This document shows, one piece after another, positions 2,859 to 20,987 of a stretch of 23,083 nucleotides of DNA; position 1 is the first letter of the stretch, and each line of letters begins with the position of its first letter. The stretch is from positions 1-23,083 of the forward strand of contig WION01000714.1 in the NCBI GenBank assembly GCA_015039365.1, read 5' to 3'. The position numbers and the translations under genes are program-made. This DNA comes from Amanita rubescens (Eukaryota > Basidiomycota > Agaricomycetes > Agaricales > Amanitaceae). Below the pieces are notes generated by a model that did no database searches, was not told the origin of the DNA, and was given only the letters and a program-made list of their open reading frames with translations.

Positions 2859-3040
2859 GGTAAGCTAGAGCGCTAAGCGATGAATGTCTGGGCAGGGATG
2901 GGAAAGGAATTGAAGGCTCTTATTTCCGTTGCCCGAGTCATAATGAGTCACTCCTGCCAGTGTCCCTGAACGTGACTCACATACCAGGGGCGATACAAAG
3001 GCAAAGCCTCTCTCAAGAATCACTCGTTCTCGCACCTCCA
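2859..3040. promoter_or_regulatory. Bidirectional promoter between paralogue B and the DUF6698-like gene
   Basis: These 182 bp separate two divergent start codons (2858 minus, 3041 plus). They hold TGAGTCA at 2944-2950 (TGACTCA on the minus strand, as upstream of paralogue A) and a second TGACTCA on the plus strand at 2973-2979. A TATA-like AATAAGAG lies near 2922 on the minus strand. Shared regulation of the two genes is possible but is only inferred. Confidence 0.4.
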
Positions 3041-4454
3041 ATGTCTGGGGCCGAAAACAATCCTTCGGTCAACGCTTTAAAGCTTGGAAGTAGGAAAAAG
3101 CCGTGAGACTATCCGACCACTTCTCCGCTAGACATGGCATTCACACTAGCCCAGTCGCACAGGCGGTCCTTTTGTTCACCATGGGCGACACTTTAGCAGA
3201 ACAGTGCATGCGATGTGTAACGTCCAAGCACTTATTGCCAATTGCCTCCTTCTTTTCGGCCAGGATGGGGATGTTATCCTAGAGGGGCTCACATCGCAGT
3301 CCGTCTTCAGCCTCCTTCTTGCATCCTGACCTTTGACATACACGTCCTTCTGTATTAGGCAACGAAAGGAGTTGAATGTATTTCAGAAACTGTTAGAAAT
3401 GGTGCCCCATCTACAGGAGCGTCTTACGGAAAGCTCTGAACTCGAAGAATACATGACGATAGCAGATTCGGTACGTCTACAACTTGAGGGCTCTCAAATT
3501 TATGCTTATCGTTTCCATTAGATTCAAAAAGGCATGTCAAGCGCAAGGTCAGACGACACCAAGAGTCTCAAGGGCGTCGTGCTGGACTGGATAACTCCCC
3601 GAGACAAGCCTTTGAATCCACCTCTTTCCCGTAGTGTCAAGACAAATCGTGGCTTCAACCACCCCGTCACTGGAGCGCTCCTCTGTCCAGCTGGCCTAGA
3701 TTGGAATGATCCCGAGTGACTCGCTTTCCCCCCCTTACACGTTGGTCACGCTAATCTGCTATCATAGAACTCGCACAAAGCTTACCAGCGGTCAACTAGC
3801 TGTGAAGGGAGATCAATGGCCCCTGATATTATACGCGAAGCAAGAGTTCGACCCTGAAGATCCATGGGATGGGCTCTTCAGAAGTGAGCTTCTTGTCTGG
3901 GTTCGTACTCCTTTGTTTTCTTTTTGGATTATTCACTACTTCGCGTGCAGGCCTTCAAGCATATCTTCACTTCGCCCAGCTCTGTGGAGAAAGAGAACAA
4001 AGCGACAAGATCCGGCAACGCTCGTATCCACGGCATGACTCGGGTCACGACGGCTTCCTTAGCCTATGTTGCTACACAGGTGAGTCCAAGTCTGACTGTC
4101 CGATCTTGTAGCTTCAATCACTGAATGTCTAAGCAGTTTCGTTTCGCCTTGTCATCCACATCCGTCTTCAGTCGGTCTGACACTTCAACCGACTCGGAAA
4201 GATTCTACGAGAGTGTATGGGACTTTTTGAACGATCCTGATGAGAGGAACGAGGTTACTGATTTGCTGAGCTGGTGGGATTGGTAGGTCTTTTGTCAATA
4301 CATCCGGTGTCAGTCTTCTATCTCATCTTTTTGTAGCCAGGTATTCCCCAGCTACGTGAATCGTGAAGGTGGAATAACGAAGCAAAGCGCACTAGCGAAG
4401 CTGAAGGAGAAGAGGGAAAAGCTGAAGCAATTGCAGAATGGACGAGCGTCGTGA
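3041..4454 (+). CDS. DUF6698-like protein, eight exons, 345 aa, complete
   Basis: Exons are 3041-3102, 3155-3298, 3359-3470, 3522-3715, 3768-3900, 3951-4079, 4137-4282 and 4337-4454. Introns are 50-60 nt with consistent phases; the sum is 1038 nt with one open frame. Landmarks in order are GRHFSRTVHAMCNV (about residue 31), a helical LLEMVPHLQERL block, ARSDDTKSLKG, PVTGALLCPAGLDWNDPE, LTSGQ, DQWPLILYA, DPEDPWDGLF, AFKHIFTSPSSVEKE, ATRSGNARIHGMT, VFSRSD and a WWDCQVFPSY end followed by a Lys-rich tail. From memory these fit the DUF6698 family, which is abundant in Agaricomycetes and often sits near transposable elements; its function is unknown. The start ATG gives a short polar leader and fits the first donor (GTGAGA). 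The least certain site is the intron 2 donor (GTCCGT). Nothing suggests decay. Confidence 0.85.
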
Positions 4455-6039
4455 TACCCTAGTAAGCTAATTTAAGAACTCCCAGCCTCTTGCTCTGTGA
4501 ATATTCAGGAGATGCGGTCCCGTTGCGCTGCATCAAACCGTAGCTTAACCTTATTGGACTTCCTTCCAGCGCCCATTTTTTATTTATTTACCAGAATGGG
4601 GTGTCCCTCCACCCAGCAACAATTGATTCTACTGTACTGTCTGATGTAACCACTCAAGTTTGTGATTTTCACTGCGTACGGCATGCTTCAGATTGAACAC
4701 TCTTTTCCTGCAAGCTGTATAGTCTTGTGTATGCGACGATGCTTCGGCCAATCATAAATGGCCATAGGCCCATAGCTCACAATAGGAGTAGACCACTTGT
4801 GCGTTCAATGAAAGCCATACTTTTGTTATGTGTTTCTAGCTCATGAAGCTTGTGAATAGTTGTAATACCTGTTCAATACCTCCTAGAGAACTTGTGGGAT
4901 GTGGGCCACCGCTTCGCGTGGCATGGTCCGAGGCTGGGCGGCTTCACAAGTCATATGTCTTTTTTTTTAAAAAAATAAATGAGGCCATTTGGCCCACAAA
5001 ATTCTAGACAGACGAGCAAGTCGTTCGTCAGAAAATGGCTAGCTTAGCATGTTTCAAGTCTCAACATTCTTATTTCCATGTCTTTAACGATTCGAGATAT
5101 TCTAGGCCTGATGACGTGCGCTGCTTGGACAGCACTATAGCCTAACTGCATGGATGTGTTGCGCGAATTGCGGGACACTGCTTGGATGTCTTGCTTAGAG
5201 CCGTATCCTTCACTGGCGGAAAAGTTCTCTCGTGAATCGCCATTCGCTGCTCGGATGTTTCACGTAGAGCTGTTACTTCAGTACTCGTGAAGTGCCGGCT
5301 TCGCGGGCTGCAACCTTGCTTTCAGAGAGTATGTAAGTCTCTTTTTGGCCCGTCTTTAATAGAATTATTCATGAACCCATTTGATTCCCGCTACTCATAT
5401 CTACAACATTAAGTATGAAGCTGACACTGACATTAAATAAGTGAGGACCAGCATATGTGGAAAACATAGAGACAATCTATCACACTGAAATTTCGTAGTG
5501 GCGGACAGCGAATAAACGGTTTGGCAGTCGTCAATACAATGTCCATCGATCAATGTCATACGATTGACAGGCGGTAAGCGAGGTTGAATAGTGGGCAACG
5601 CAACGCCCAATCTGCGCCAACGTGGGCGCTAGATACTCTCCCCGATGCTCTTTGTCATATGCAACGACTTTCTCTCAAAATCGTTCTATACAACTCTCGT
5701 CAGTTACCAAATTCTGTTATGTGCCCCTACTTACGATATGCTCGTCGTCTTCTTTTCCTTTTCTGGCATCGCCTCGTAACCGCATTTGTATGCTTCCCAA
5801 CTGACCACCGAATTTGGCGGACTGGTCGCTCCAGAACTCGACGAAGAGGAAGACGGCCCATTAGTCACGCTTTATCCTGCGGTGCGAGTCTCATTGACTG
5901 TAGATGTTGGGATGATTCAGTTTGGAGTGGGTAGAGGGGAGATGATCTGCGGGAGGTGGGAGAGGACGGGGCGTAGGCCATTTCGGGAAAGACACAAAAC
6001 ACACCCAAGTACCACCACTTCGGAGTAGTTTTGCATTAG
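4455..6039. other. Long intergenic region without a supported gene
   Basis: This stretch holds the 3' flank of the DUF6698-like gene, then mixed sequence. There is a T9A7 homopolymer pair at about 4960-4975. Words of the type GGATGT-T-GC recur at 5152-5195 and again at 6772-6812, hinting at an old dispersed repeat. Open frames on either strand here are short and show no family I recognise, and no splice-joined coding series emerged. I see no RNA gene. Confidence 0.4.
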
Positions 6040-6360
6040 TTTGGATGTCGCCCGTTTGAGGTCGTTGGTCGTGGACGATCACACAACTGTACAGTGCGAA
6101 TGTGATGAGGTAGGTCATGGCGTAGGTTGCAGGAAAAGCGGGGAGTAATCGTTGAAGGCTTGCGAGTCGAATAGGTGTTGGGGGTGAGAACGTGGGTGAT
6201 GTTGTAGACTTGGGAGAGTCCGTTGTAGGGGTTGTTGTAGGATATAGGGAAGTAGGTGAAGTGTCGGCTCTGGGGCGGGCGTTAGATGGGTGGGTGAAAA
6301 CGAGAGGAAAGATGGGCTCACGTTGGTATAGTAAAACATCCCCTTGAAATTGCATGAACT
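6040..6360 (-). pseudogene. Relic of an oligopeptide transporter (OPT family)
   Basis: Four pieces in the order expected of a fungal OPT transporter lie in different minus-strand frames: FYYTNV near 6343; YNGLSQVYNITHVLTP at about 6230-6181; LFDSQAFNDYSPLFL at about 6172-6130; and PATYAMTYLITFALYSCVIV at about 6130-6078. The extracellular loop with YN-TxVLTP, the AYSPLFL motif and the following membrane segment are typical of the family, known for proton-coupled uptake of small peptides. Joining the pieces needs two frame changes, and no intron with usable splice sites explains them. The rest of the transporter (normally about 700-900 aa) is not seen on either side, so this is a broken gene fragment. 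Confidence 0.6.
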
Positions 6361-7138
6361 ACTAGTCAGCGAGTTGAGATCCGGTGGTAAGAATCCTTGC
6401 GCATGGCTATCACCAAAGACAAGTAGTCAGATTGGATGTACGTCCTTGTCGAAAGTGACTCAATCACCTGGTGATCTGAGCTCGATAGAATCGCACAAGG
6501 CCCAAGACAGACTCTGCATACTCGATAGCATCCTGATGTTTTGATAAAGTGGGAGGTAAGAGCGCGTTGGTATTCGTCGTGAAGGACGACCCATATTTTG
6601 GAGACTGGAAGAGCATGGTTCATGCATAGAGATGGAAGCTGTAGATAGGATGATATGAGTAAGGTTTTGGAGGATACGAAACGACACATACCATCCACGT
6701 CCATTATGAATCCATTTTGAACGGCATCCGGTCTTCACAATTTGGCAATGTGGGCAGCTCTGTGTAGAGCTTGGATGTGTCGCGTCTTCCGCGAGTTGCA
6801 TGGATGTCTCGCATAGTGCCGAAAAACGTCGTGAGTGGAGCCGTTGTTGTCTCGGGGATGTTCGCCGGAAAATGCCGTCCGCACTGGCGTTTCTCGCGTT
6901 TTCCCGGTGCAAGATTCCGGACCTGAGTCCTTTCAGGGCCTCGGAACTTTGCGCGTGTTTTGACTGCACTTATAATCTGATCTGACTCGACGGTCACCAC
7001 CATGTACTCTGTTCGTTTTCTCACCCTCATCATCCCCACGGTCTCGCACAGAAGAATCCAGGGGCAGACTTTACGTCGCCCCTCAAGGGGTAGACTCTTG
7101 TGTCGCTCTTTCACCGACCGTGACCCAAACTGTGCTAT
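6361..7138. other. No supported gene
   Basis: Several overlapping open frames exist on the minus strand (longest near 6460-6969 and 6704-7186), but none resembles a family I know and they overlap one another in different frames. The 6704-7186 frame runs into the LINE insertion, so its end is not ancestral. This stretch is the 5' flank of the LINE insertion site. Confidence 0.35.
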
Positions 7139-7948
7139 TATGTATGCATTCAGCCGTCCTCGCTCGGGAATGGCTCCAAAGATCACCAGAACACCAATTA
7201 CGCTTTACGTGGTGCCCATCACATGTAGGTATCGATGGCAATGAACGTGCTGACAGAGCAGCAAACGGTGGGGGGGATGTGGACGTCCACCCGGGAGGCC
7301 TTCGCCTCCACCTCCTTGAAGAAGACAAGGAACGCGCTCAGAAATGGTGGCGCCTGAGGGCGCTACAAGAAAACTACATCGGGCACAACTTCATCCGCAT
7401 CCGACGTAAGGGGAAACCATTCCGCCCATACTTCAAGTCAAAAAACAAAAACTTCTTCATCGATCTCGGTAACAATAATATTGTCAATGTCAGCCGGCTA
7501 ACGCGTATCCTTACAGGCCACGCTCCTACAGGTGAATACCGGGAGCGTTTCTTCCCAGATAAAGCTACTCATTGTCATCACTGTGGATACGGTACTTTCC
7601 ACTCCCGACATCACATACTCGTAGAATGTACAAAATACTCATCCCTCCTTAGGTCCTTAAATGACCTCATCTATAACCAAGACAATGGCAAAGCCATACG
7701 AACGTTCCTCAAGAAAAACCCTACTGCCTTCACTTTAAATGACCTCCCTCCCGAGCCCCCATGATACCTCTACTATAATGCTAGACACCTTCCTCGTAAT
7801 CCTTACGACCCTAGACATAATTTTACGTTACTACGTACATTTATTTACCTCCGCATGAGGTGGCCCCAAAAGCGATCATAGGATACCGCTCTAGTACATA
7901 CACAAATACACTTCTATTCGGAAAAAAAAAAAAAAAATATGTATGCAT
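7139..7948 (+). mobile_element. 5'-truncated LINE retrotransposon with 11 bp target-site duplication
   Basis: The 11 bp TATGTATGCAT occurs at 7139-7149 and again at 7938-7948, directly after a run of 16 A (7922-7937). The element body is therefore 7150-7937, 788 bp: the end of ORF2, a 3' untranslated part and the poly(A) tail. A poly(A) tail plus short direct repeats plus loss of the 5' part is the signature of target-primed reverse transcription that stopped early. The duplicated 11 bp are still identical and the remaining frame is open, so the insertion is probably young. The empty site would have read CTAT, then the 11 bp once, then CAATTTCTG. This copy cannot move by itself. Confidence 0.85.
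7150..7764 (+). CDS. C-terminal part of LINE ORF2: RNase H end and zinc-binding tail (partial)
   Basis: The frame is open from before the element to the TGA at 7762-7764; the element-derived part is about 205 codons. It begins inside the RNase H domain: FTWCPSHVGIDGNERADRAA contains the conserved His and the last catalytic Asp of RNase H1-like domains of LINE elements. Further on, LTRILTGHAPTGEYRERF is followed by a C-x2-C...H-H-x4-C group (CHHC...RHHILVEC), a tail common in fungal Tad/I-type elements. The endonuclease, reverse transcriptase and most of RNase H are missing because of 5' truncation. There is no start codon of its own; any translation would begin in flanking DNA, which is unlikely to matter. 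Confidence 0.8.
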   Translation, partial: SAVLAREWLQRSPEHQLRFTWCPSHVGIDGNERADRAANGGGDVDVHPGGLRLHLLEEDKERAQKWWRLRALQENYIGHNFIRIRRKGKPFRPYFKSKNKNFFIDLGNNNIVNVSRLTRILTGHAPTGEYRERFFPDKATHCHHCGYGTFHSRHHILVECTKYSSLLRSLNDLIYNQDNGKAIRTFLKKNPTAFTLNDLPPEPP

Positions 7949-12473: not shown

Positions 12474-12745
12474 AATGGGGGTGAAAGGGGGTGACGACAA
12501 CGACGAGGGAAATTGGGGGATGTGGGGCGACGATTGCCAAAAAGGGAAAGGGGACAGCGGCGGAAATTGGGGGGGATGCAGGGCGACGATTGCCAAAAAG
12601 GGAAAGGGACAGCGGCCACGATGGGGGACAAAGGGGGGATGACAATGACGACGAGGGGGGTAATGACGATGATGACGAAAGAGGAGGGGGGGTGATGACG
12701 ACGATGACAAAAAAGGAAAGGGGCAACAACGACGTCGCGATCGCG
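12474..12745. repeat. G-run and GAC-rich tract with a 55 bp internal duplication
   Basis: Runs of three to seven G recur on the plus strand, separated by GACGA-type words. A unit beginning GGAAATTGGGGG and containing GGGCGACGATTGCCAAAAAG occurs twice in a row at about 12508-12615. The purine bias is extreme, so the open frames on either strand are by-products of low complexity. The G-run spacing would allow G-quadruplexes on the plus strand. Confidence 0.6.
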
Positions 12746-13291: not shown

Positions 13292-16200
13292 TTAACAACA
13301 AGAAAAAGATCTTGAAAGGATTTTTTCAGCCATGCAAAATGTTCCAGTGCCAGCTGTGATGCCTACATCAGAAAGAAAATATTTGAGACAGATGAATGAA
13401 CAACAAAGGGAATGCATATGTGATCTATGTACAAATAAATATGATCCCAATGCAAAGACAATGCAGCCAATATATCACTGCCTGGATATCATACTGTCTG
13501 TTTCACCCTGCCATAAATTGTTCATATGTAACTAGTGCATGACTAGACAAAGTACATACCATCAATGTGAGACACCTGCCTATTGAGTAATGTGACAAGA
13601 TCTTGATGACCAGAGTGCATAAAGTCAGGAGTAATGTCAGTCTTCAGCTTCTGAGCATAGCCTTTTTGCTTGTATTGATCCAAGGCCTCTGTGACTGATG
13701 GCAGAAATGGTTTATTGATCCAAAAGGATAGCTTGGCAATGATAATAAGTGCTCCAAGGTTTAAGCATAAATTCAGTAAATGAAAAGGAGTAATTTACAA
13801 ACTAAGACCTGGCAATCAGTAGGCTTGTTGCAATGGCATCAGTTGTGTACTTCCCAAAAAGAAAAAAAAAATACCTTGACTGTAAAGTTCTTTTGCTTGT
13901 TTTCAAACATTGAGAAAAGTTCATGCTAGTTATGTATGAAATAGAGAATGATCACATGAGGTGAGAGTGGGTGAACTGAAATGAAATCTTACAATCTTGT
14001 CATAGGAAAAAATGTGATGAGATTGCCTTTCACAAAATGTGCAATGTCACTCACTTCCTGTTGGTCATATGAAAAGATGTGATGAGACTGCCTCTCACAA
14101 AATGTGCAATGTCACTCACAGACTGTTGGTCATAGGAAAAGATGTGATGAGACTGCCTTTCACAAAATGTGCAATGTCACTCACTTCCTGTTGGTCATAG
14201 GAAAAGATGTGATGAGACTGCCTTTCACAAAATGTGCAATGTCACTCACTTCCTGTTGGTCATAGGAAAAGATGTGATGAGACTGCCTTTCACAAAATGT
14301 GCAATGTCACTCACGGACTGTTGGTCATAAGAAAAGATGTGATGAGACTGCCTTTCACAAAATGTGCAATGTCACTCACTTCCTGTTGGTCATAGGAAAA
14401 GATGTGATGAGACTGCCTTTCACAAAATGTGCAATGTCACTCACAAACTGTTGGTCACAGGAAAAGATGTGATGAGACTGCCTTTCACAAAGTGTACAAT
14501 GTCACTCACTTCCTGTTGGTCACAGGAGAAGATGTGATGAGACTGCCTTTCACAAAATGTGCAATGTCACTCACTCGCTGTTGGTCATAGGAAAAGATGT
14601 GATGAGACTGCCTTTCACAAAATGTGCAATGTCACTCACTCGCTGTTGGTCATAGGAAAAGATGTGATGAGACTGCCTTTCACAAAATGTGCAATGTCAC
14701 TCACATCCTGTTGGTCATAGGAAAAGATGTGATGAGACTGCCTTTCACAAAATGTGCAATGTCACTCACTTCCTGTTGGTCATAGGAAAAGATGTGATGA
14801 GACTGCCTTTCACAAAATGTGCAATGTCACTCACTTCCTGTTGTTGGTCACAGGGGAAGATGTGATGAGACTGCCTTTCACAAAATGTGCAATCTCACTC
14901 ACAAACTGTTGGTCATAGGAAAAGATGTGATGAGACTGCCTTTCACAAAATGTGCAATGTCACTCACTCGCTGTTGGTCATAGGAAAAGATGTGATGAGA
15001 CTGCCTTTCACAAAATGTGCAATGTCACTCACATACTGTTGGTCATAGGAAAAGATGTGATGAGACTGCCTTTCACAAAATGTGCAATGTCACTCACTCG
15101 CTGTTGGTCATAGGAAAAGATGTGATGAGACTGCCTTTCACAAAATGTGCAATGTCACTCACTCGCTGTTGGTCATAGGAAAAGATGTGATGAGACTGCC
15201 TTTCACAAAATGTGCAATGTCACTCACATCCTGTTGGTCATAGGAAAAGATGTGATGAGACTGCCTTTCACAAAATGTGCAATGTCACTCACATCCTGTT
15301 GGTCATAGGAAAAGATGTGATGAGACTGCCTTTCACAAAATGTGCAATGTCACTCACTTCCTGTTGGTCACAGGAGAAGATGTGATGAGACTGCCTTTCA
15401 CAAAATGTGCAATGTCACTCACTTGCTGTTGGTCATAGGAAAAAATGTGATGAGACTGCCTTTCACAAAATGTGCAATGTCACTCACCATCTGTTGGTCA
15501 TAGGAAAAGATGTGATGAGACTGCATTTCACAAAATGTGCAATGTCACTCACAAACTGTTGGTCATAGGAAAAGATGTGATGAGACTGCCTTTCACAAAA
15601 TGTGCAATGTCACTCACTCGCTGTTGGTCATAGGAAAAGATATGATGAGACTGCCTTTCACAAAATGTGCAATGTCACTCACTCCCTGTTGGTCACAGGA
15701 AAAGATATGATGAGACTGCCTTTCACAAAATGTGCAATGTCACTCACTCGCTGTTGGTCATAGGAAAAGATGTGATGAGACTGCCTTTCACAAAATGTGC
15801 AATGTCACTCACATCCTGTTGGTCATAGGAAAAGATGTGATGAGACTGCCTTTCACAAAATGTGCAATGTCACTCACTTCCTGTTGGTCATAGGAAAAGA
15901 TGTGATGAGACTGCCTTTCACAAAATGTGCAATGTCACTCACTTCCTGTTGTTGGTCACAGGGGAAGATGTGATGAGACTGCCTTTCACAAAATGTGCAA
16001 TGTCACTCACTCGCTGTTGGTCATAGGAAAAGATGTGATGAGACTGCCTTTCACAAAATGTGCAATGTCACTCACATACTGTTGGTCATAGGAAAAGATG
16101 TGATGAGACTGCCTTTCACAAAATGTGCAATGTCACTCACTCGCTGTTGGTCATAGGAAAAGATGTGATGGGACTGCCTTTCACAAAATGTGCAATGTCA

Positions 16201-19200
16201 CTCACATCCTGTTGGTCATAGGAAAAGATGTGATGAGACTGCCTTTCACAAAATGTGCAATGTCACTCACTCGCTGTTGGTCATAGGAAAAGATGTGATG
16301 AGACTGCCTTTCACAAAATGTGCAATGTCACTCACTCGCTGTTGGTCATAGGAAAAGATGTGATGAGACTGCCTTTCACAAAATGTGCAATGTCACTCAC
16401 ATCCTGTTGGTCATAGGAAAAGATGTGATGAGACTGCCTTTCACAAAATGTGCAATGTCACTCACATCCTGTTGGTCATAGGAAAAGATGTGATGAGACT
16501 GCCTTTCACAAAATGTGCAATGTCACTCACTTCCTGTTGGTCACAGGAGAAGATGTGATGAGACTGCCTTTCACAAAATGTGCAATGTCACTCACTCGCT
16601 GTTGGTCATAGGAAAAAATGTGATGAGACTGCCTTTCACAAAATGTGCAATGTCACTCACCATCTGTTGGTCATAGGAAAAGATGTGATGAGACTGCCTT
16701 TCACAAAATGTGCAATGTCACTCACAAACTGTTGGTCATAGGAAAAGATGTGATGAGACTGCCTTTCACAAAATGTGCAATGTCACTCACAAACTGTTGG
16801 TCATAGGAAAAGATATGATGAGACTGCCTTTCACAAAATGTGCAATGTCACTCACTCCCTGTTGGTCACAGGAAAAGATATGATGAGACTGCCTTTCACA
16901 AAATGTGCAATGTCACTCACTCGCTGTTGGTCACAGGAAAAGATGTGATGAGACTGCCTTTCACAAAATGTGCAATGTCACTCACTCGCTGTTGGTCATA
17001 GGAAAAGATGTGATGAGACTGCCTTTCACAAAATGTGCAATCTCACTCACAAACTGTTGGTCATAGGAAAAGATGTGATGAGACTGCCTTTCACAAAATG
17101 TGCAATGTCACTCACTTGCTGTTGGTCATAGGAAAAGATGTGATGGGACTGCCTTTCACAAAATGTGCAATGTCACTCACAAACTGTTGGTCATAGGAAA
17201 AGATGTGATGGGACTGCCTTTCACAAAATGTGCAATGTCACTCACAAACTGTTGGTCATAGGAAAAGATGTGATGAGACTGCCTTTCACAAAATGTGCAA
17301 TGTCACTCACATCCTGTTGGTCATAGGAAAAGATGTGATGAGACTGCCTTTCACAAAATGTGCAATGTCACTCACATCCTGTTGGTCATAGGAAAAGATG
17401 TGATGAGACTGCCTTTCACAAAATGTGCAATGTCACTCACGGACTGTTGGTCATAGGAAAAGATGTGATGAGACTGCCTTTCACAAAATGTGCAATGTCA
17501 CTCACTCGCTGTTGGTCATAGGAAAAGATGTGATGGGACTGCCTTTCACAAAATGTGCAATCTCACTCACCAACTGTTGGTCATAGGAAAAGATGTGATG
17601 AGACTGCCTTTCACAAAATGTGCAATCTCACTCACAAACTGTTGGTCATAGGAAAAGATGTGATGAGACTGCCTTTCACAAAATGTGCAATGTCACTTAC
17701 ATCCTGTTGGTCATAGGAAAAGATGTGATGAGACTGCCTTTCACAAAATGTGCAATGTCACTCACTCGCTGTTGGTCATAGGAAAAGATGTGATGAGACT
17801 GCCTTTCACAAAATGTGCAATGTCACTCACAAACTGTTGGTCATAGGAAAAGATGTGATGAGACTGCCTTTCACAAAATGTGCAATGTCACTCACGTACT
17901 GTTGGTCATAGGAAAAGATATGATGAGACTGCCTTTCACAAAATGTGCAATGTCAGTGGTCACTCACTCGCTGTTGGTCATAGGAAAAGATGTGATGAGA
18001 CTGCCTTTCACAAAATGTGCAATGTCACTCACATCCTGTTGGTCATAGGAAAAGATGTGATGAGACTGCCTTTCACAAAATGTGCAATGTCACTTACATC
18101 CTGTTGGTCATAGGAAAAGATGTGATGAGACTGCCTTTCACAAAATGTGCAATGTCACTCACTTCCTGTTGGTCATAGGAAAAGATGTGATGAGACTGCC
18201 TTTCACAAAATGTGCAATGTCACTCACAAACTGTTGGTCATAGGAAAAGATGTGATGAGACTGCCTTTCACAAAATGTGCAATGTTACTCACTTGCTGTT
18301 GGTCATAGGAAAAGATGTGATGAGACTGCCTTTCACAAAATGTGCAATGTCACTTACATCCTGTTGGTCATAGGAAAAGATGTGATGAGACTGCCTTTCA
18401 CAAAATGTGCAATGTCACTCACAAACTGTTGGTCATAGGAAAAGATGTGATGAGACTGCCTTTCACAAAATGTGCAATGTCACTCACTCCCTGTTGGTCA
18501 TAGGAAAAGATGTGATGAGACTGCCTTTCACAAAATGTGCAATGTTACTCACATACTGTTGGACACAGGCAAAATTTTGATAAGGTCATCTTTTGAACCA
18601 TTAAACCAGTATGACATGCTGCTAACCTTCTATGTTTATAAGAAAAGCTGTGATTTCACTGCTTTTCACAAAACTTTCAATATCACTCACAATCTGTAGA
18701 ACAAAATAATGTGACCTGTAGCAGCCAGCATCACTCACTCACTTCCTTTTAGAATGGAATTAGTATCATGAGGAGTTGTGAAAAAAGAAAACAATGCCAC
18801 TGACTCTCTTTTGCCATAGTATTTTATATGATGGATTCACATGTCACAAAAGGATCACATACATCCTGTTTGTTTTGCAATAGCTTTGAAGTTTGAAGAG
18901 GCTTTGAAAAGGAGAGATATTTACTGTCTGTTGTTTTGGGACATGATGCAATGTTTATAAGCAGACAGAAAGGAGATGTTACTTACTTCCTGTTATTAAT
19001 CCAATGAAATTTGTTGAGACTCTCTTTCAGATAATAATATGTTACCAACTTTCTGTTGTTTATTGAGTTATGTCTGATAAGCTGTATGAACATCAATGTT
19101 GCTTACTTTCTTTAACCAGGTCAGATGTGGTGTGAAACAATGTTGTAATACCCACTCCCTGTCCATGAGAGACTGGATTCACAAGTATGCTTACAATGAT

Positions 19201-20987
19201 AGATCAACTCACTTGCTATTGGACATATGATGCACCATGGGATCATTTACCAAAGATCAAAATGGAGTCATGTCACTCACTTCCTGTAGATTATGGGACA
19301 AGACTGCTGATCACAAAAGGAAGCATTACTCACAAACTAGTGTCATGAGACAATATATCAGATCTATGCTATGTATGTAGTAGTTCAATGTCACTTACCC
19401 ACTGATATCAATATCATCAGATCATGCCACCAAGAATATGGTGACAGTGACTAACCTGTGTTTCACTCAGTTGTTCATTGGCCATCTGAAGCATGACTAA
19501 TCTTGTTTTCATGTGAAGGCATTGGAGTGTTACTTACCACCTGATGAACATTTGCAAATATTTATCATTCCATATGAAGGTCACCTGCCTCCCTGTCCAC
19601 CTATTGCCATTTAAAATTTCCTATGCTGATGTGCAGTTTGACAAAAATGCATACCCAAAAATGTGGAAATTTTGAAAAAACTATGATAATGACATCATCC
19701 CATGTCCAATTTTTATACTTCAGAACATGTCTGGATAATGTCAATGTTAGTAAGTGACATTTTGAATGTGACCCTCACTGAAGTGCAGATTTAACACAAA
19801 GGTCAAGATTATTCATTTGTGTTGAAACAAACAGCTGATGTATGCTGGCATCATCTATTGCATCAGCAGTTTGCTGAGTTAATTCAGCACAATTCTTCTC
19901 TGGTAAATCCATGTCTATGAAACAACATTACTACCATTTTTCAGGAAGAAATCCTCATCATTCTCACCTTCCAATCGCACATATGCCTTGGGAGGATATA
20001 TGGCATCCAAAACTTGAGGAAGATAAACTTTCTGAAAAGTGATTTCAGCAATTTCCCTGGCTCTCTCCCACTTATCTTCATCCTTTGCATCAGGAGTCAA
20101 GTTGACAGATTCACTGGCTATTTGACCATCAAATTTAGTGAATATAACCACCAAAGGAACTGTAAAGGAAATATTTACTAGTCAGTACTAGTAGATTTTG
20201 TGACAAGTTGGCCAATGGAAAGGAGGTAACAATAGTTAAGGGTAACCAAAACCAACAAGTTACAAGATGAGATATGAATTCATTAGGACTTACCTCTGCC
20301 TGTCCCTTTATTGAAGAATTCAAGTTCTGCAGGTAGAATGGGTCGAGGGCTGTCCATGGGTATACAGTACCTAGAGGAAGCCAGGTTAGCCAGTACTGTA
20401 AAGGGATAGAGCAAAATACCAAATTGCATGCAGCTGGTTTTTCAGCTCAGTTTCTGCAGACTTCTTTTCAATGAACTTCCAAGCAATCTCCAATTCCTCA
20501 GTTGAACCAGATTCAAAACCCTGAGAGTCATGGAAGATAAAGTTACTTCCAGGGTATGTAATCTGATGCTCAATATCATGCAGGCCCCTCTATTATTATG
20601 GCATGTGAATGGGTACATTCATACATCATTATCTAACTCACCTCAAGTGATGGCATCAAATGAATCACAGACTGTTCAAGCTGATTACCTGCAAGAGACT
20701 CAACAATTGAAGGAAGCACAAGATCCAGACTCACTTACCATTCTTGCCATATATGATGGGCTTTGTCCCCTTTGCTACACCACAAACCTTCTCAAGGATG
20801 GTTGTCTTGCCTGCATTAGCCCTCCCAATGACAAGGATGCGAAAGTGTGGGCATAGGTAGCGTTCCCTGAGCATTTGAACATGTGTCTCATCTGAGTCTG
20901 CATCTGATATGTGTCAGTCAAGGGTTAGCAATGCTGAGTCACATAAATTAGCCTACTCAAAGAAGGTGCACCAGTTGTATCTGCCAT
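13292..20987 (-). CDS. P-loop GTPase with a tail encoded by about 87 single-codon exons
   Basis: G-domain exons: 20987-20957, 20903-20739, 20688-20642, 20589-20420, 20370-20294, 20159-19968, 19914-19779, 19730-19719 and 19600-19585 (282 codons). G1 is GRANAGKTT (residues 37-45), G3 is DSQG (102-105) and G4 is TKFD (171-174); AEITFQ, YPPKAYVRLE and LFVSTQMNNLDLC are also typical. These fit the large Agaricomycete family of predicted G-domain proteins; cellular role unknown. Then come GTG (19540-19538), a 30-nt exon (19485-19456, MANEQLSETQ), 14 single codons (19401-18627), 70 single codons (18555-14055), ATT (13995-13993), a 15-nt exon (13889-13875), TTT (13801-13799), a 172-nt exon (13731-13560) and probably 13362-13292. 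Phases agree and total 1395 nt (464 aa). The G domain is secure. The exons at 19730-19719 and 19600-19585, the acceptors of the 15-nt and 172-nt exons, and the final exon are less so. The array could also be removed as one long intron without changing frame. Confidence 0.75.
13875..13889 (-). other. 15-nt exon after the microexon array
   Basis: AACTTTACAGTCAAG lies between acceptor GCAAAAG and donor GTATTT and adds NFTVK in phase 0. AAAAG-type acceptors also flank two upstream microexons (18805-18807 and 18743-18745). A competing acceptor (TTTACAG) would leave only 5 nt and break the frame. Confidence 0.4.
14705..15812 (-). repeat. Higher-order repeat, copy 1 (17 units)
   Basis: The series of trinucleotides and rare intron markers from 14705 recurs 1108 bp later. 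The markers are the CAACAACAG gain, CACAGG for CATAGG, AAAAAATG, and AGATATGATG for AGATGTGATG. The 1108 bp offset equals 17 units plus the 3-nt gain, so a block of units was duplicated together. Confidence 0.75.
15813..16985 (-). repeat. Higher-order repeat, copy 2 (18 units)
   Basis: Same order of marked units as copy 1, with one unit lost (the TTT unit at about 14905), two gained, and two matched units whose codon differs. Unequal exchange or replication slippage over about 1.1 kb explains the block copy. Confidence 0.7.
18556..19540 (-). other. Fourteen one-codon exons in diverged introns, plus a 30-nt exon and GTG
   Basis: Each trinucleotide sits exactly between an acceptor AG and a donor GT. 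TGG 19399-19401, TTT 19334-19336, GAA 19281-19283, CAA 19213-19215, GGA 19156-19158, AAA 19107-19109, AAA 19050-19052, GAA 18987-18989, ACA 18925-18927, GAT 18863-18865, AGA 18805-18807, GAA 18743-18745, ATT 18691-18693, AAG 18627-18629. The introns are 62, 50, 65, 54, 46, 54, 60, 59, 59, 55, 59, 49, 61 and 71 nt. Their interiors share little beyond the splice signals and, in some, a GTGAGTGACATTG-like start. The 30-nt exon 19485-19456 (MANEQLSETQ) and GTG 19540-19538 precede them. Donors are GTAAGT, GTGAGT, GTATGT, GTTGGT, GTGGGT, GTAAGC, GTTAGC, GTAAAT and one weak GTCAGT. Confidence 0.75.

Follow-up and report, generated by a model that had tools for sequence, protein, structure and literature searches.

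How small can an exon be, and how many exons of that size can follow one another in a single gene? This question is raised by one contig of the basidiomycete Amanita rubescens (WION01000714.1, here C667; 23,083 bases within a 75.7-Mb assembly), referred to below in its full length as the window. On the minus strand, from 19540 to 13993, a GTPase-like gene contains a series of acceptor AG, three nucleotides and donor GT, as an earlier sequence-based prediction had described. We favor, with a probability of about 0.87, the explanation that this gene encodes a hypervariable protein tail from 86 predicted one-codon exons, likely joined by stepwise removal of the short introns between them. The layout, the phase and the conservation of these exons speak for it, and spliced proteins match sister loci. 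One-codon splicing is documented for the sister loci by proteins that likely derive from complementary DNA (cDNA), and is inferred for the window gene.

The predicted spliced coding sequence (CDS), read as far as the residues HID, comprises 99 exons, 1,462 nucleotides (nt) and 487 codons without a stop. It is composed of 11 upstream exons, 85 one-codon exons located in 19401-13993 and three C-terminal exons; a GTG at 19540-19538, counted among the upstream exons, brings the one-codon exons to 86. All of them are sense and in phase 0 and, as anticipated, the frame is continuous from intact G-domain exons through the array into in-phase C-terminal coding exons. The pattern of about 87 one-codon exons in a total of about 100 held, the exact counts being 86 and 99. 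The downstream exon proposed at 13731-13560 (172 nt) is actually 192 nt long (13751-13560) and preceded by exons of 51 and 25 nt. A run of predicted array codons reads, for example, MREDDRRDRYREED. The donor of exon 9 (19588-19583) is GC (GCAGGT) in the window gene and in its near-identical copy L027; it is GT in the 14 other loci where this junction was compared, and in L028 the GT follows one extra base.

Tandem Repeats Finder (TRF) calls the array a 65-nt tandem repeat of 70.2 copies, and 67 of 84 unit-to-unit steps measure exactly 65 nt. The array might thus be regarded as a non-coding intronic minisatellite in which AG-NNN-GT is a coincidence of the repeat unit. A chance origin of the series is excluded in three ways. 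When chains were sought at fixed exon size with near-consensus donors and introns of 44-95 nt, a procedure that overlooks 6-nt and 9-nt exons in its tails, the window yielded a chain of up to 78 links at exon size 3; every other size from 0 to 12, and the opposite strand, gave 1 or 2. Dinucleotide shuffles, 200 each for the window array and for the loci L025, L014 and L013, never produced a chain longer than 2. Finally, across 66 of the 65-nt units (one further unit being dropped as too diverged), diversity amounted to 0.685, 0.668 and 0.590 in the codon columns, whereas the 62 intron columns averaged 0.016 and never exceeded 0.193; the codon columns of these homogenized units are about 40 times more variable. 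The same 66 units hold 12 different codons and no stop, and their GT and last eight acceptor columns are invariant. In unit pairs with identical introns on both sides, the codon differs in 267 of 335 cases. In the window, 77 of 86 donors conform to GTRAGT and 81 of 85 acceptors to YAG, and retention of any of the 85 introns preceding array codons would lead to a stop or a frame shift (85/85, 80 by frame shift). The minisatellite explanation is left with next to no credibility: the diversity sits in the three codon columns, diverged loci retain the pattern despite varied intron lengths, and the spliced protein P0121 matches the sister locus L025, so that for the sister loci it is already contradicted.

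Codon usage also sets the one-codon exons apart. Of the NAG plus NAA codons, NAG accounts for 22 of 319 where the exon is a single codon and for 357 of 734 in ordinary exons; the corresponding figures for C-ending two-fold codons are 5 of 182 and 305 of 977. Avoidance of a terminal AG was weighed as a general cause and dropped since C-ending two-fold codons are likewise avoided; the bias therefore generally favors a final A or T. The chain search used for codon counts (972 codons) penalized stops, and its zero stops carry no weight.

Evidence of splicing comes from four JGI proteins, P0121, P0040, P0008 and P0062, whose contigs are likely cDNA judging from their size. P0121 counts 156 amino acids on a contig of 2,135 nt; the tail by itself stretches over 4.0 kb of L025 (C207), and the contig is likely cDNA because it is too short to hold the genomic exons. 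The P0121 tail is identical to that locus at 65 of 66 residues. The alignment passes through 61 exons, of which 57 measure 3 nt, three 6 nt and the remaining one 9 nt; the introns between them are 50-121 nt long, and the residue is identical in 56 of the 57 one-codon exons. It scores 328, against a mean of 113.8 and a maximum of 140 for 100 tail shuffles. The second copy L029 (C278) scores 292 and the next best of 18 loci 114; the C-terminal part of P0121 leads to the same loci C207 and C278 (92% over 64 residues). Seven proteins, P0121 among them, were found with the C-terminal exons as query; six read as genomic open frames running through an intron and P0121 alone reads as spliced.

The other three proteins extend beyond the G domain into the part encoded by one-codon exons. 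They match the predicted post-G-domain stretch of the window, whose last 15 residues are one-codon exons, at 42/55 residues for P0008 (E 2e-30), 39/55 for P0062 (E 1e-26) and 27/56 for P0040 (E 6e-12). The 40-residue variable part of P0040 scores 123.5 against L032, where none of 100 shuffles exceeded 101, and 105.5 against L031. Its last residues, GTGTGTGACATTGCACA.. and VCDIAQFSECQSHL.., look like translated intron of this family, that is, a retained intron. The loci that best match the G-domain end of P0008, C604 and C599, were fetched as its possible source and do not carry the P0008 tail. The original prediction had left room for stepwise splicing, recursive splicing or no splicing. The joining of codons is supported in sister loci by P0121/L025, P0040, P0008 and P0062 and is extrapolated to the window; the order of joining is conjectural throughout.

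Several observations weigh against this reading. The cDNA nature of the JGI contigs is deduced from their size. No RNA of the window gene has been seen, its homogenized part (66 near-identical units) is without a matching transcript, and a protein search with the tail region of the window yielded 14 candidates and none at E 0.01. Past the conserved start, P0008 and P0062 found no clear match in the 18 loci tried. The P0040 match is weaker: the L032 alignment resorts to some exons longer than one codon (6, 12 and 15 nt), with introns as long as 129 nt, and the L031 alignment crosses a TGA. In P0121/L025, the three 6-nt exons and the single 9-nt exon break the series, the longest one-codon run being 21, and two L025 triplets with good sites (AAA and CGA) are absent from P0121. 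In-frame TGA codons occur within the chain, three in L010 and one each in L014, L016, L017, L018 and L036; we attribute them to misparsing or decay. The missing L025 triplets lie at 4874-4993 and 5639-5759, and the P0121/L029 alignment gaps the same 121 nt at the CGA place. In this one transcript, their absence may reflect either single-codon skipping or a lineage difference.

A competing proposal is that the homogenized array of the window leaves the transcript inside a single long intron or a small number of them, or else spoils the transcript, and that only the older, diverged sister arrays still use their one-codon exons. The transcript-like proteins with a matched locus all belong to other loci, and identical splice sites invite skipping, of which the two good-site triplets missing from P0121 may be instances. 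We nevertheless find such a fate of the array quite improbable given its 85 sense codons out of 85 in a single open frame, its constant GT and acceptor columns, and its comparison with L027. The latter carries one extra 65-nt unit (CGA); apart from this, a single 7-nt gap and a change at 1 of the 5,147 intron bases set it apart from the window array, and all 255 codon bases are unchanged.

The tail start WFEQGKKETDREI, located in one-codon exons, is conserved between loci. The first 13 one-codon residues are conserved among the 11 loci compared, and in the corresponding exons 54 of 55 pairs show higher identity in the codons than in the introns (0.90 versus 0.81, with every gap scored as a mismatch; L010, L014, L015, L017, L031, L032 and the copies L018, L027 and L029 were omitted). 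Beyond this start the tails are hypervariable. Past residue 17, tail identity is 0.37 against 0.35 for shuffled tails over 151 pairs of 18 loci, and C-terminal exon identity 0.71; in the 18 pairs whose C-terminal exons are at least 85% identical, tail identity is 0.43 against 0.38 shuffled. Near-identical pairs (window/L027, 1.00; L025/L029, 0.89) were excluded from these means, each copy still entering other pairs. The agreement of P0121 and L025 at 65 of 66 residues indicates that a given tail can be kept.

The window gene belongs to a large family. The ten fetched loci sharing its intron core (L009-L018) contain chains of 7 to 66 links at exon size 3 and of at most 3 at other sizes; they are not ten independent cases because L017 and L018 yield the same tail. 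L012 sits at a contig end, and L015 bears another chain, 15 links long, on the opposite strand. Predicted tails comprise 27 to 86 one-codon exons in 18 loci, L015 being omitted since its fetched stretch is without the start. L035 and L036 were considered as possible other gene families and proved to be distant members of the same GTPase-like family. When 58 residues of the last large exon were used as genome query, 150 of 219 candidates were scored and all 150 were free of internal stops, which puts the copy number at 150 at least. Of the G-domain-end exons, 121 of 150 (the places taken from a list of 207 matches) are followed on the same strand by a C-terminal exon 2.4-8.1 kb downstream (median 3.9 kb); as controls, a C-terminal exon within 12 kb was found upstream for 4 of the 150 and on the opposite strand for 10. 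Both copy and linkage counts are inflated by haplotypes, as many contigs hold near-identical copies. Genome-wide, CAG-N3-GTRAGTGA occurs at 4,622 sites against 83 for the backward control, whereas CAG-N4-GTRAGTGA occurs at 67 against 112. This strict site captures 546 of 1,014 chain exons in 17 loci, from which the genome total would approach 8,500 one-codon exons if the other loci are alike.

How did these arrays arise? A single intron core has 1,991 genome matches with at most 3 mismatches, and the codon is uncoupled from the flanking intron sequence, as would be expected if an ordinary tail exon had received an introner-like element behind each of its codons, rather than growing by tandem duplication of intron-plus-codon units. 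We regard this origin as rather unlikely because the copies are arrayed at a period that is near-uniform within a locus yet not the same from one locus to the next (56 in L009, 65 both in the window and in L010), because the window and L027 are one whole unit apart and because tail lengths differ between paralogues. In L009, the array at 2904-6992 has mostly a 56-nt period and a predicted tail, LQKLQKLQKYLEREQYLERYKEYQRERDRRGY, that looks like a coiled coil; other loci have quite different tails. In L010, the units at 4615-7501 measure 64 or 66 nt and the chain includes in-frame TGA codons, though its C-terminal exon is 98% identical to that of the window; L010 is perhaps a decaying copy.

The encoded protein resembles a GTPase. 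In the window CDS, the motifs GxxxxGK[ST], DxxG and [NT]KxD appear in this order as GRANAGKT, DSQG and TKFD, an arrangement of the TRAFAC type, and we take them to be the P-loop, DxxG and [NT]KxD elements. Pfam detects MMR_HSR1 in P0040 below cut-off and no domain in P0008, P0062 and P0121 at E 0.01. An AlphaFold2 model of P0040 (47 sequences) has a mean predicted local distance difference test (pLDDT) value of 77.8; 186 of 378 residues, mostly in the G domain, reach at least 90 and the tail is mostly below 60. The best Foldseek matches of this model are GM4951, Irga6/IIGP1, septins and BDLP, with E-values from 1.3e-5 and identities of 9-16% among the matches listed; the immunity-related GTPases (IRGs) have template modelling scores (TM-scores) of at most 0.41 and identities of 11-15%. 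The likeness to IRG, septin and dynamin-like GTPases lies in these structural matches, at low TM-scores, and the difference in the low sequence identity and in a PDB sequence search that returned no match at E 0.01.

Is such a locus without precedent, as the original prediction held for dozens of consecutive 3-nt exons? It is not, since the NACHT-ANK genes of truffles precede it; their 3-bp mini-exons were reportedly first described by Iotti et al. in 2012. The nank genes of Tuber melanosporum are reported to contain tens of codon-sized, alternatively spliced mini-exons (PMC9815663, PMC3689799, PMC4986451, PMC10197012). In those accounts, the likeness extends to an expanded nucleoside triphosphatase (NTPase) family, an ectomycorrhizal fungus and codon-sized exons in a variable C-terminal part. 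The Amanita loci likewise contain dozens of 3-bp exons (86 in the window, 27 to 86 in 18 loci) and a variable C-terminal region in an expanded family (tail identity at the shuffled level; 121 linked exon pairs, haplotypes included). The truffle genes, as there described, encode NACHT and ankyrin repeats in an ascomycete, whereas the Amanita genes are GTPase-like in a basidiomycete and, judging from secondary descriptions of nank, differ by conserved C-terminal exons after the tail and by minisatellite-like introns. Alternative splicing is reported for the truffle mini-exons; on the Amanita side, the two L025 triplets absent from the single transcript-like protein P0121 may or may not reflect it. 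Pfam found neither NACHT nor ankyrin in P0008, P0062, P0040 and P0121; the window gene is therefore not a nank gene and only works alike. The device is common to both, the protein family and the phylum are not. Among the open-access PMC texts listed by literature searches, none described arrays of this kind in Amanita or in GTPases. Fungal introner-like elements are likewise reported to consist of one intron sequence in very many near-identical copies (PMC4457414), but the Amanita introns, in the loci fetched, form tandem arrays within a single gene family. Single microexons, such as the one-nucleotide exon reported in Fusarium CYP621A (PMC12940212), are likewise far below the usual minimum size; there one tiny exon is concerned, here dozens consecutively.

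How could the splicing machinery handle such exons? Recognition of introns across themselves (intron definition) is the usual mode in fungi, and each short intron of the tail would be recognized in this manner because the introns are short and their donors and acceptors near consensus; a length of about 62 nt, with GTGAGT and CAG at the ends, suits this mode well. Given spliceosome footprints, two complete spliceosomes are unlikely to stand over a 3-nt exon at once; with no room for both, the introns are likely removed one after another, and a codon would be joined first to one neighbor and then to the other. A zero-nucleotide site, CAG/GTGAGT, lies within 6762-6870 of L025, a stretch that P0121 skips whole, and a similar site precedes the HELFSMFG-type exon in L011, L013, L014, L015, L016 (GTGGGT) and L018 and not in the window. 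This recurrent site, located after the final one-codon exons and ahead of the exon that follows them, could be a ratchet point of recursive splicing. The gene consists of intact G-domain exons, a conserved one-codon tail start, a fast-changing one-codon middle with near-identical 62-nt introns and conserved C-terminal exons. Its tail may grow or shrink by unequal exchange or slippage between identical introns, adding or removing intron-plus-codon units; since whole units are gained or lost, one residue would change per event and the frame would not be shifted. Point mutation and selection would then diversify the codon.

Because the exons are in phase 0 and their splice sites similar, the skipping of a single codon would leave the frame intact. 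The tails might therefore chiefly be an alternative-splicing device in which any codon can be skipped in frame and one gene yields many tails. The 86 phase-0 exons, the two L025 triplets absent from P0121 and the alternative splicing reported for the truffle system are compatible with it; only a single transcript-like protein is matched in detail, and the two absences are perhaps lineage differences, so that we hold this device to be doubtful as the main role. By analogy with truffle genes and IRGs, the tail could serve as a variable recognition or interaction surface of a large GTPase family, perhaps in non-self recognition. As a tentative extension, more than 100 GTPase copies might form an independently evolved diversity generator, with hypervariable, receptor-like tails built residue by residue through the copying or skipping of units. 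Identical introns would then be both splice units and recombination substrate, allowing single-residue change within and between generations with the frame kept.

Splicing can probably join far smaller exons, and far more of them in series, than textbooks assume. This natural system, whose 4,622 strict sites supply 3-nt exon candidates by the thousand, makes minimal exon size, intron definition and splicing order testable. It also suggests that truffles and a basidiomycete came to the same trick in unrelated NTPase families. Existing annotation appears to pass over it: among 127 proteins (the best 120 of 1,309 homologues and the seven from the C-terminal-exon search), the tail-start motif was found only in the JGI entries P0008, P0040 and P0062 and in none named by NCBI, hence catalogues seem to miss the most variable part. 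The NCBI-named homologues examined end at, before or shortly past the ..FPHFW exon, and their gene models therefore appear truncated ahead of the tail. Gene catalogues possibly miss similar tails elsewhere.

Table 1. Exons and array segments of the GTPase-like gene in the window, with the evidence for each.
Feature	Position	Strand	Evidence
Exon 1, 31 nt, start codon, MADTTGAPSL..	20957..20987	-	Frame runs on into P-loop exon; homologues from protein search
Exon 2, 165 nt, P-loop GRANAGKT	20739..20903	-	Spliced CDS; homologues
Exon 3, 47 nt	20642..20688	-	Spliced CDS
Exon 4, 170 nt, HDSQGFESG (DxxG-like)	20420..20589	-	Spliced CDS
Exon 5, 77 nt	20294..20370	-	Spliced CDS
Exon 6, 192 nt, TKFD (NKxD-like)	19968..20159	-	Spliced CDS
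Exon 7, 136 nt, G domain end	19779..19914	-	Spliced CDS; genome-wide exon search
Exon 8, 76 nt, ..SKFPHFW	19655..19730	-	Spliced CDS
Exon 9, 12 nt, VDRE, GC donor	19589..19600	-	Locus comparison; counterparts VGRD in P0062, VDRA in P0008
One-codon exon GTG (V)	19538..19540	-	Corresponding residue V in P0008, E in P0062
Exon MANEQLSETQ, 30 nt	19456..19485	-	Spliced CDS; protein matches
First 15 predicted one-codon exons, WFEQGKKETDREIKY, separated by diverged introns (46-71 nt)	18553..19401	-	Similar residues in P0008, P0062 and other loci
85 predicted one-codon exons (AG-NNN-GT), protein tail	13993..19401	-	Chain search; spliced CDS; shuffles
Homogenized array part, 65-nt units (62-nt intron and one codon)	13999..18574	-	TRF tandem repeat, 70.2 copies
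First C-terminal exon, 51 nt, HELFSMFENKQKNFTVK	13875..13925	-	DELFSMFGDGQRNFAVK in P0121
Second C-terminal exon, 25 nt, PTDCQVLV+S	13799..13823	-	Spliced CDS; P0121
Third C-terminal exon, 192 nt, ..SLIIIAKLSFWINKPF..HID	13560..13751	-	150 genome-wide matches scored, 0 with internal stop

Elsewhere in the window, short tandem repeats of 56, 24 and 32 nt occupy 12508-12717. A protein-family scan of the left part covered five open frames; one of these, of 262 amino acids at 6976-7764 on the plus strand, has an RNase H match under the Pfam cut-off and is probably a retroelement remnant.

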